A stretch of 37,134 nucleotides of DNA, taken from the NCBI GenBank assembly GCA_004292855.1, contig RDXN01000085.1, positions 1-37,134 of the forward strand, in the 5' to 3' direction. This document shows positions 26,623 through 29,454 of the stretch, one piece after another. Each line of letters opens with the position of its first letter. The stretch's first letter is position 1. This DNA is from Cytophagales bacterium (lineage in GTDB: Bacteria; Bacteroidota; Bacteroidia; Cytophagales; Spirosomataceae). A program made the position numbers and the translations under genes. Below the pieces are notes generated by a model. The model worked only from the letters and a program-made list of their open reading frames with translations, was not told the origin of the DNA and did not search any database.

Positions 26623-27477
26623 TCATCCGTTTCTTGTGAGGTGCCCAACCAGTGTTACGGCCTCAACAGCCTCGCGCACGTCATGAACCCGCAGAATCGA
26701 CGCACCTTTCATAAGGGCAACTGTGTTCAGGACGGTGGTGCCGTTGAGGGCTTGGTCGGGGGTGGTGCCGAGCGTGCGCCAAATGGTCGATTTGCGGGAA
26801 AGCCCCACCAGCAGCGGTTCATCGAACAGGTTGAACGTTTCGAGTTGATTTAGCAGCGTAAAATTGTGAGCAGGCGTTTTGGCAAACCCAAAGCCGGGGT
26901 CCAGCATCACGTCGACTTGCCCCAACGCCCGCAATCGGGCTAGTTGCCGGCCCATCTCGTCGATTACCTCCAAGACCACATTATTGTATTTGGCCAGCGA
27001 CTGCATCGTTTGGGGGGTGCCGCGCAGATGCATCAGCACATACGGCACCCGCAACGCGGCCACCGTCTCGAACATGGCGGGGTCGAGTGTACCCCCGGCC
27101 ACGTCATTCACCAGACAAGCCCCGGCCTCGACCGCCTGCCGCGCCACCGACGCCCGGAACGTGTCGACCGACAGCAGGGCGTCGGGCCACGCCCGCCGGA
27201 TGGTTTCGATGGCGGGCAACACTCGGTCGGTTTCTTCGGCGGGGCTGATGTCGGGGGCGCCGGGGCGGGTCGAGTAGCCGCCGATGTCCAGAAACGTGGC
27301 TCCATCGCGGAGCATTTGCCCGGCCCGGTCGACTAATTCACTATCGGAAGATGCTACCCGACTACCCGCGAAAAACGAGTCGGGCGTCACGTTCAGGATG
27401 CCCATCACGGCGGGTCCATGACTCAGGTCAACCAATCGACCCCGGCAATTCAGCGTTTTTTTCGTATTTTGCGCCAT
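26623..27477 (-). CDS. folP: Dihydropteroate synthase
   Basis: Folate biosynthesis: joins 6-hydroxymethyl-dihydropterin diphosphate with p-aminobenzoate to give dihydropteroate; target of sulfonamides. The 284-residue TIM barrel has all family signatures: VMGILNVTPDSFFAGS, FLDIGGYSTRPGA, LLSVDTFRASVARQAVEAGA, LVNDVAGGTLDP, YVLMHLRGTPQTMQ, VMLDPGFGFAKTPAHNFTLL, LLVGLSRKSTI and ILRVHDVREAVEAV. The start (MAQNTKKTLNCRG) is typical. Its ATG is only five bases from the divergent DUF1599 ATG, so its promoter and ribosome contact must lie inside that neighbour. Confidence 0.95.
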   Translation of the reverse strand: MAQNTKKTLNCRGRLVDLSHGPAVMGILNVTPDSFFAGSRVASSDSELVDRAGQMLRDGATFLDIGGYSTRPGAPDISPAEETDRVLPAIETIRRAWPDALLSVDTFRASVARQAVEAGACLVNDVAGGTLDPAMFETVAALRVPYVLMHLRGTPQTMQSLAKYNNVVLEVIDEMGRQLARLRALGQVDVMLDPGFGFAKTPAHNFTLLNQLETFNLFDEPLLVGLSRKSTIWRTLGTTPDQALNGTTVLNTVALMKGASILRVHDVREAVEAVTLVGHLTRNG

Positions 27478-27482
27478 TAATT

Positions 27483-28022
27483 ATGAATACAGAACAGCAA
27501 TATCGGCAGGTTGTGGAGCGATGCAAGTCGCTGTTCCTGAAAAAAAATACGGACTACGGTACGGCGTGGCGTATTCTGCGGCTTCCGAGCATCACCGACC
27601 AGATTTTTATCAAGGCCCAGCGCATCCGAACGTTGCAGGAAAAGGGCGTCTCGAAGGTAGGGGAGGGCATTGAGCCCGAGTTTGTTGGCATCATCAATTA
27701 CTGTGTGATGGCCCTGATTCAGATGGGCTTACACAATGATACAAGGACCGACATCCCGACCGCTGAACTCGAACAACTGTACGATGCGGAGATCGGTGCC
27801 GTGACGCAACTCCTGTTCGCCAAAAACCACGATTACGGCGAGGCTTGGCGCGATATGCGGGTCAGTTCGATGACCGATATTATTCTAATGAAACTACTCC
27901 GTACCAAACAAATCGAAGACAATGCCGGAGCGACACTAGTTTCGGAAGGGGTCGATGCCAACTATATGGACATGATTAACTACGCCGTGTTTTGCCTTAT
28001 AAAAATGAGTGAACAAAATTAA
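27483..28022 (+). CDS. DUF1599 (nucleotide-modification-associated domain) protein
   Basis: A 179-residue cytoplasmic protein made of two tandem copies of the same unit. The first (about 10-80) has LFLKKNTDYGTAWRILRLPS, ITDQIFIKAQRI, EGIEPEFVGIINY; the second (about 103-175) has LLFAKNHDYGEAWRDMRVSS, MTDIILMKLLRT, EGVDANYMDMINY. This is the DUF1599 duplication, related to domains linked with modified nucleotide metabolism; biochemical function is unknown. In Bacteroidota it is often found close to folP and BT_3928-type genes, as here. The upstream frame (from 27351) is antisense folP, so the ATG at 27483 is the start. The plus strand carries TATTTTG at 27465-27471, a near match to a -7 box, so the mRNA may be almost leaderless. 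Its stop codon lies inside the MITE target duplication. Confidence 0.9.
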   Translation: MNTEQQYRQVVERCKSLFLKKNTDYGTAWRILRLPSITDQIFIKAQRIRTLQEKGVSKVGEGIEPEFVGIINYCVMALIQMGLHNDTRTDIPTAELEQLYDAEIGAVTQLLFAKNHDYGEAWRDMRVSSMTDIILMKLLRTKQIEDNAGATLVSEGVDANYMDMINYAVFCLIKMSEQN

Positions 28023-28024
28023 AC

Positions 28025-28212
28025 GGGTGCATTTCAATCTTGTGTTTTGCCCAACCGTCGCTACTTAGATCAACCTCTATTGGCCTTGCGGCCATGCCGG
28101 AAAATATCCGGCATTACATGGAGAAGCGACTTTTGTAATGCCGGCGGTCCGTCGCTACGGTACCTTCCGGCATGGCCGTAAGGCCAACAACGCACAAGAT
28201 TGAAATGCACCC
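28025..28212. mobile_element. 188-bp MITE with perfect 20-bp TIRs and 8-bp target duplication
   Basis: GGGTGCATTTCAATCTTGTG at 28025-28044 is matched exactly in reverse complement at 28193-28212. The element is flanked on both sides by AATTAAAC (28017-28024 and 28213-28220), a perfect 8-bp target-site duplication. Inside are a second pair of inverted arms (28080-28102 with 28165-28187, one mismatch) and a central hairpin (CCGGCATTACA at 28108-28118 with its complement at 28134-28144). There is no open reading frame. TIRs beginning GGG and an 8-bp duplication are compatible with passengers of IS1595, ISL3 or IS256-type transposases; which one cannot be told here. Confidence 0.9.
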
Positions 28213-28296
28213 AATTAAACTACTTTTTGTAGTCTTTAAGTTACCTACCTATTGAATTTTAAAGCGATTTGAGCGTCGCAACTTGCCAACAACTAA

Positions 28297-29454
28297 ATGG
28301 AAACCAGCGTACAAACTCCCAAAATTAAAACCGGCACTCCCGGAATGCTTATTGTTGCCCGAATCGCGCGTTATCTGGTCGGCACGATCTTTATCATTTC
28401 GGGCCTCATCAAACTCAACGACCCGGTCGGGACGCAGATCAAACTGGAAGAATATTTTGAAGTATTTGCTCAGGATTTGCCCGCTCTACACGGTTTTTTT
28501 GAGGCACTCATTCCGGCCGCCTTGCTCATTTCGGTGGTCATGTGCGTACTCGAAGTCGTGTTGGGCGTAGCCTTGCTGGCATCGTATAAACCTAAGCTAA
28601 CCACCTGGATCTTGTTGGCACTGGTGAGTTATTTTACCATTCTGACGTTCTATTCGGCTTATTTTAACAAAGTGACCGACTGCGGTTGCTTTGGCGATGC
28701 CTTGAAACTCAAACCCTGGACCTCGTTCACCAAAGACGTGGTTCTGATGGTGCTGATTCTGTTCATCATCGGCCACCGCAACCGGATGCCCTCGCGCAAA
28801 ACGGGCTGGATTGTCGGATTAGCCACCATTCTATCCATTGGTTTAGGCATCTACGCCATCGAGTTTTTACCCCCGCTCGATTTGTTGCCGTATGCCGTAG
28901 GGAAGAATATTCCGACCCTCATGAAGCCTTCGGAAGAGCTTCGATATAAGTATATAATGACCAAAGACGGGCAAGAGTTTGAATTCGATAAGTACCCCAC
29001 CGAGGGCGGCTACACGTTCAAGGAGATGGTGTTGCTGAACGAAAACGCGAAGCAAAAAATCACCGACTACCGCGTTTGGAACGATGCCGACGGCGATTTT
29101 ACGCAGGAGACGTTCAAAGGCAACAAACTGTTTGTGATCATTAAAAACGTGAAAGAGTTCGACGCCGGTAGTATGCCTGCCATCCGGTCGTTGCTCAAGG
29201 GCCTGCAAGGATCTGCGGTAACCCCCTATATTCTGACCTCGGTGAGTAATGACGAGATTACGGCGTTTATGAAGGAATATCAACTCGAAGCTTCTGTTTA
29301 TCAGGCCGATGCAACCGTTCTGAAAACCATCATGCGCTCGAACCCCGGTACATGGCTTCTTAGCAACGGCACCGTTAAAGGCAAATGGCACGTGAATACC
29401 ACACCCACGGTGGAAGAAATTTTAGGAGCAGTAGGCAGTGGCAGTAAGCAGTAA
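28297..29454 (+). CDS. BT_3928-type protein: DoxX/MauE-like membrane domain plus thioredoxin-like domain
   Basis: A 385-residue inner-membrane protein. The first half has four to five membrane segments in DoxX/MauE style (RYLVGTIFIISGLIKLNDPV, EALIPAALLISVVMCVLEVV) and the conserved redox-type loop VTDCGCFGDALKLKPWTSF. The second half (about 200-378) is a periplasmic domain that reads like a degenerate thioredoxin fold (NKLFVIIKNVKEFD, ALRSLL-type helix, WLLSNGTVKGKWH) with no CXXC. The family occurs next to DUF1599 in many Bacteroidota; function is unknown, perhaps envelope redox. The last eight residues (AVGSGSKQ) are encoded by the low-complexity DNA repeat at 29424-29502 and are probably not part of the ancestral protein. 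A MITE separates it from DUF1599. Confidence 0.88.
   Translation: METSVQTPKIKTGTPGMLIVARIARYLVGTIFIISGLIKLNDPVGTQIKLEEYFEVFAQDLPALHGFFEALIPAALLISVVMCVLEVVLGVALLASYKPKLTTWILLALVSYFTILTFYSAYFNKVTDCGCFGDALKLKPWTSFTKDVVLMVLILFIIGHRNRMPSRKTGWIVGLATILSIGLGIYAIEFLPPLDLLPYAVGKNIPTLMKPSEELRYKYIMTKDGQEFEFDKYPTEGGYTFKEMVLLNENAKQKITDYRVWNDADGDFTQETFKGNKLFVIIKNVKEFDAGSMPAIRSLLKGLQGSAVTPYILTSVSNDEITAFMKEYQLEASVYQADATVLKTIMRSNPGTWLLSNGTVKGKWHVNTTPTVEEILGAVGSGSKQ

Follow-up and report, generated by a model that had tools for sequence, protein, structure and literature searches.

A probable ISKra4-type miniature element carrying a REP dimer on the stop codon of a DUF1599 gene in a Cytophagales genome

The ISKra4 superfamily of insertion sequences (ISs), as described in PMC3942029, has inverted repeats of 18-39 bp with a terminal C and target duplications of 8 or 9 bp. 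Members of its ISMich2 group are described in the same paper with a transposase in two ORFs and a -1 frameshift. GTAG-tagged REP repeats are a separate class of small repeat. The 2013 survey in PMC3733652 lists their carriers as Proteobacteria, Cyanobacteria, Chloroflexi and the PVC group, and names Bacteroidetes only for CGTC repeats. The element presented here was found in the draft genome of a Cytophagales bacterium (Spirosomataceae). It is probably, at roughly 85%, a MITE of ISKra4 type that is mobilised in trans and carries a REP dimer as a passenger.

The window, the whole stretch of 37,134 nucleotides that was analysed, contains a gene-less element of 188 bp at 28025-28212. It is bounded by perfect terminal inverted repeats (TIRs) of 20 bp, GGGTGCATTTCAATCTTGTG at 28025-28044 on the forward strand and its exact reverse complement at 28193-28212 on the reverse strand. 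An exact 8-bp target duplication, AATTAAAC, lies outside these ends at 28017-28024 and 28213-28220. The first-pass annotation had claimed identical 20-bp repeats and an exact duplication on both sides; this held, and its coordinates of 28017-28220 are exact with both duplicates included. With up to three mismatches allowed, the window has two matches to the first 18 bases of the TIR, against 0.04 expected. The ORF list of the window holds no frame of 60 or more amino acids within the element.

Both neighbouring genes are on the forward strand. The upstream DUF1599 gene (PF07659, E 4.9e-63) is intact at 27483-28022, the start being a chosen one within a frame that the ORF list opens at 27351. 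Its TAA, at 28020-28022, is within the left duplicate and the protein is unchanged, as the sequence had first been read. The downstream gene, at 28297-29454, encodes a BT_3928-family, MauE-DoxX-like protein. Stretches of 25-33 bp that match the last ~30 bases of this gene (29424-29454) are numerous in genomes G001 and G002, and G010 has one. Inverted pairs occur among these matches, which belong to another small repeat family, overlapping the gene end.

The interior consists of two REP units between two arms. The left arm (28045-28079, forward strand) is common to the REP-cored copies of the element, and the short right arm occupies 28188-28192 (forward strand). The first REP unit (28080-28117, reverse strand) has two hairpins and a GTAG-like tag, here GTAA, at its inner end. 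A 17-bp asymmetric spacer at 28118-28134 precedes the second unit (28135-28187, forward strand), a long form with a 15-bp extra stretch at about 28144-28158. Within this arrangement, 28080-28102 and 28165-28187 form an internal inverted repeat (23 nt, 96%). The predicted fold of 28025-28211 has an energy of -65.7 kcal/mol as DNA (z -12.8) and -107.1 kcal/mol as RNA (z -14.2), with 0/200 shuffles as good in either case, in agreement with the strong folding that had been ascribed to internal arms and a central hairpin. These arms and hairpin are a tail-to-tail dimer of GTAG-tagged REP repeats with the tags inside.

Most of the MITE-borne REP units carry GTAA as the tag and some carry GTAG. Free-standing relatives of these units occur in the genome in the form GTAGTGCCGG...CCGGCATGGCC....GGCCAA. 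Both tags were found by pattern at 10 of 27 free-standing loci, on the outside of the dimer in all 10, while the other 17 loci have one tag or none by pattern. In the terms of PMC3733652, the free-standing dimers of this genome are head-to-head, whereas the MITE-borne dimer is tail-to-tail. The strict REP pattern occurs 36 times in this genome, four of these in MITE-type dimers by position, and once, never and once in G001, G002 and G003; a control pattern occurs once in G001 and in none of the rest. The long REP form of this element, with its ~15 extra bases, is also present in free-standing REPs, and the two pools are therefore related.

Variation among the copies is found in both the spacer and the core. 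Relative to the arms, the asymmetric spacer has one orientation in 8 of 12 copies and is inverted in the remaining four (C39, C53, C23 and C18). Common arm variants are found in C18, which is turned, and C2, which is not, and this hints at more than one turning event. Two short copies have no core and retain a single hairpin; they may have lost the core by deletion or represent an earlier form. We infer that the REP dimer was taken up by the MITE and not the other way round.

Copies were sought in the draft assembly of this genome (G000; 6.25 Mb, 108 contigs). The 20-bp TIR has 35 sites at up to three mismatches, 16 of them exact, and the reversed-pattern control has none. These sites are at unrelated loci with different duplications, the outcome for which a genome-wide TIR search had been proposed. 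A search with the whole element returned at least 76 matching pieces, some overlapping on both strands as the element is palindromic. Among the 40 of 88 candidates that were scored, there are at least 11 further near-full copies of 74-98% identity, the closest being C71 (98%) and C55 (96%); identities as high as these two suggest recent spread. The genomic context was examined for 18 copies: 13 lie outside any ORF of 80 or more codons, and five have a spanning candidate ORF of 243-561 nt. An autonomous copy at a contig end was also considered; at the solo TIRs C26:53680, C94 and C82, the neighbouring DNA resembles, by eye, host sequence or remnants of palindromes.

The census of target duplications covered 25 places. 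Fourteen were counted as two-ended, with both TIRs present and the partner at up to four mismatches: C1, C39, C46, C47, C55, C71, C78, C85, C23, C26:31627, C53:63432, C98:12247, C2 and C83. The remaining 11 were left out as having solo, truncated, contig-edge or more diverged ends. An exact duplication of 8-9 bp within one base of the ends flanks 8/14 two-ended copies (C39, C47, C55, C71, C85, C53, C83 and C2). The duplication of C1 has one mismatch in eight bases; that of C46 has one in nine, and one end of this copy is displaced by two bases. In the last four copies the duplications are 7 bp long, imperfect or absent. Two of the places left out, C30 and C70, have exact 9-bp repeats with right ends 7 and 10 bases off the TIR. 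The chance of an exact 8-bp match at comparable spacing is 3.75e-5 per random position pair, as estimated from 63 kb of genome DNA; the trial of 25 end-offset pairs and three lengths raises the chance per place, which is still far below 8/14.

Relatives provide the corresponding site without the element. Both flanking genes were placed at 20 of 24 loci in relatives, representing 17 distinct places, and are adjacent there with a gap of -4 to 178 bp between their aligned parts. No TIR-like 20-mer with fewer than six mismatches is present in the stretches fetched at the 17 places. The claim that the element had wedged itself between genes that are usually neighbours is upheld by this comparison. 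As the intergenic DNA of the relatives is too diverged for the exact empty-site string AATTAAACTAC to be read, the age of the insertion is bounded only by the point at which this genome separated from the other three of the genus, which it postdates. With no gene, perfect TIRs, a target duplication, multiple copies and absence from the orthologous site, the element at 28025-28212 is a MITE.

The same TIRs also enclose other interiors. A giant palindrome lies between them at C26:31627, and likewise at C53:98937 up to the point where the contig ends; a different palindrome lies at C90, where the right end is degenerate. At C83:3833-3897 (L067), a close variant of the TIR bounds a 65-bp element that folds as a single end-to-end hairpin (-34.7 kcal/mol) and has an exact flanking duplication. 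Another TIR-flanked element with a different interior is broken between contigs C98 and C24. The giant palindrome of C26:31627 has a partial relative in a large free-standing palindrome, C14:1297-1390 (L240), around which no TIR-like 20-mer with fewer than seven mismatches occurs in 700 bases. Together with the free-standing REPs, this relative means that at least two types of interior have relatives outside MITEs. In sister species, single elements with a similar TIR head and, by eye, different interiors were observed at L072 (G001) and at L148 and L145 (G003).

Beyond the genus, the TIR was traced through two genome sets. Of the 222 family genomes, seven, this one among them, contain it at up to two mismatches. 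For the matches in G030, G121, G129, G159 and G190, no inverted partner was found within 1.5 kb at up to six mismatches. A scan of a named genome collection with the TIR 18-mer gave 11 stretches, none of which has an inverted partner at up to five mismatches in the fetched DNA. Eight of these (L079, L081-L085, L088 and L089) are, judged from their flanks by eye, one conserved Proteobacterial coding stretch. These 11 stretches, standing without an inverted partner, were read as gene or chance matches.

An IS with related ends was found by a TIR scan of the genus. In the sister species G003, a 1265-bp IS at C731:635-1899 has perfect 21-bp TIRs, GGGTGCATTTCAAATTGTCGC. Pieces of its transposase match the ISKra4 model NF033572 (NCBIfam) with E values of 1.2e-28 and 2.6e-19, below the curated cut-off, and have no match in Pfam. 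The transposase frame of this IS holds a stop, and there is no target duplication at its ends (8/8 bases differ).

An independent test was made by running the transposase profile over the 222 genomes of the family. There was a match in 37, nine of them above the cut-off, and 30 loci were fetched. A GG-starting TIR pair was found at 14/30 loci, the other 16, some of which are cut by contig ends, having none. The TIRs begin GGGYG at 11/30 (L213, L214, L216, L218, L219, L221, L222, L223, L228, L230 and L232), one of them being read one base inside, and L223 being the G003 IS again. Both ends of L219 and L223 carry GGGTGCATTTCAAATTGTCG, and further examples are GGGTGTATTTCAAATTTACG at L218 and GGGTGCATTTCAAAA at L230. 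The outer TIR head GGGTGCATTTCAA is common to the MITE, the G003 IS on C731, L219, L230 and one end of L232, with close variants in other ISs. The ISs that share ends with the MITE are 1.1-1.35 kb long and were found in relatives through the ISKra4-type transposase. The MITE TIR agrees with the IS ends in roughly its outer 13 bases alone and differs from them in the inner seven. A full-length IS sharing the TIR had been sought as a check; one exists in the sister species and shares the outer bases, but the inner part of the TIR does not correspond.

Several properties of these ISs bear on the assignment. The duplication is exact over 8 bp at L213, TATAAAGG, and has one mismatch at L232. At the nine remaining GGGYG loci, among them the G003 IS, there are 3-8 mismatches where a duplication is expected. 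All GGGYG loci score below the curated cut-off of NF033572, the highest at 197 of 205 bits. GGGYG ends are absent from the nine fetched loci that exceed the cut-off (L204-L212), so the family link runs through shorter transposases, which the ISKra4 model matches only in part. The transposase is split over two frames, ORF1 and ORF2, in all nine related ISs that were translated. The offset is -1 in four (L218, L230, L228 and L214) and +1 in five (L213, L219, L216, L232 and L143, from G003), the latter including the ISs with the most similar TIRs. The ISMich2 signature of a -1 frameshift is seen only in part, in those 4/9 ISs, and the MITE itself has no gene. The frame offsets are often near runs of A, and either programmed frameshifting or indel variation is possible there.

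The MITE is very probably a derivative of the ISKra4 family (Mutator-like, 'p-MULT 4'), nearest to short two-ORF elements resembling ISMich2. Its 20-bp TIR falls in the 18-39 range with the terminal C (5' G), its copies have 8-9 bp duplications (exact in 8/14), and its outer TIR bases are common to transposase-encoding ISs whose transposases score below the cut-off.

An active transposase somewhere in the genome had also been predicted, and this is not supported by the draft assembly. Neither the family profile nor the sister protein of G003 detected an ISKra4-type transposase in the 6.25-Mb, 108-contig assembly. This search covered the ISKra4 type, and the draft state leaves room for an unassembled copy. 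The end of C98 (L062) and the start of C24 (L061) have a common duplication, GGATCTAGT, together with MITE ends, and both run into GGGGTGAGGTTTACCCACAAGTC in opposite orientation. They appear to be the two parts of one MITE broken by another, unassembled IS. If that is correct, ISs do fall into assembly gaps in this genome, and a missing copy of the transposase is possible.

Three other explanations were weighed against an ISKra4-type MITE with a REP passenger. If the intergenic sequence were a conserved structured RNA or an attenuator and not a mobile element, folding as strong as that predicted here would be expected; the stems are kept in most of the 12 copies, and 4/63 predicted pairs have changes on both sides. 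The covariation term is nonetheless close to zero (0.25 kcal/mol), and correction between palindrome arms would explain the paired changes equally. The window has no Rfam match, none of the four terminator-like sites scanned is inside the element, and the copies are spread over unrelated loci where the duplications differ. The same insertion at the orthologous locus had been named as the finding that would favour an RNA, and the 17 places in relatives do not have it, which leaves this explanation extremely improbable. A second possibility is a REP/BIME element that a RAYT tyrosine transposase has spread and whose REP array includes the outer TIR; this would account for a core made of GTAG REPs that also stand free, in a genome with eight matches to the RAYT-type family PF01797. 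Against it, the 8-9 bp duplications flank the TIR-bearing unit, and the same TIRs also enclose interiors in which this REP is absent. A search of the flanks, over as much as 1.5 kb, at the 18 PF01797 loci in the genus returned neither GTA(A/G)TGCCGG nor its reverse, and the PF01797 gene of L183 has a different REP, GTAGCGCGGTTTTCC. A RAYT origin is accordingly very unlikely.

Other DDE families also duplicate 8 bp, for example IS256 and IS1595. A MITE of such a family, with a TIR that resembles ISKra4 ends by convergence, would fit an assembly in which the search covered the ISKra4 type and found no such transposase, and it would fit the seven inner TIR bases that differ from known ISs. The 13 identical outer bases shared with ISs that were found through their transposase in G003, G212 and G084 speak against convergence, and this origin is improbable.

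The ISKra4-type reading implies the following sequence of events. The GGGTGCATTTCAA ends would be recognised by an ISKra4-type transposase supplied in trans, and insertion would follow through a staggered cut of 8-9 bp, which at this locus would have fallen on the DUF1599 stop codon. The REP dimer in the interior would be carried along whenever the MITE moves. We infer that the source transposase has been lost or is missing from the assembly. Three copies of another GTAG repeat, GTAGCGCGGTTTTCC(G/A)AAACCGCGC, accompany the PF01797 (RAYT-type) gene at L183 (G000:C101:81835-85077), and gene and repeat together resemble a true RAYT/REP pair.

Overall, the element belongs to an ordinary class of mobile DNA; what is unusual is its palindromic interior, which varies and which it would have acquired. 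As at least two types of interior have relatives outside MITEs, one could speculate further that Mutator-type miniature elements behave as tiny Pack-MULEs. Their constant ends would pick up dispersed palindromes, turn a REP dimer inside out, allow the core to invert, and spread; this extension is rather unlikely. If REP hairpins do ride in MITEs of DDE transposons, REPs could spread without a RAYT, and tail-to-tail REP dimers would be readily explained. Among titles and the starts of abstracts in the open-licence literature, no title was found on an ISKra4-type MITE or on REP dimers inside MITEs.

The element resembles several described systems in part. With ISKra4 / p-MULT 4 and the ISMich2 group, as presented in PMC3942029, it shares a 20-bp TIR starting with G, 8-9 bp duplications and, with the ISs of some relatives, the outer 13 bases. 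It differs in its size of 188 bp against 1.1-1.35 kb, in having no transposase gene and in the inner seven bases of the TIR; the related ISs are below the model cut-off, and the -1 offset of ISMich2 is found in only 4/9. GTAG-tagged REPs and their dimers (PMC3733652) and REPINs (PMC3116915) likewise have units with GTAG-like tags in inverted dimers, and long and short loop forms as in the free-standing copies. The dimer here is tail-to-tail inside a MITE, the free-standing ones are head-to-head, and no cognate RAYT was found adjacent. Plant Pack-MULEs, again from PMC3942029, similarly have Mutator-type ends around varying interiors, whereas the interiors here are short palindromes in which no gene fragments were seen, and capture is a proposal. 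Chunjie, Nezha, Correia/NEMIS and MITEAba12, bacterial MITEs named in PMC10969869 and PMC3733652, are, like this element, short, gene-less and mostly intergenic, with TIRs, a target duplication and a strong hairpin. What sets the present element apart from these is its interior, a GTAG-REP dimer here and other palindromes in other copies with the same TIRs.
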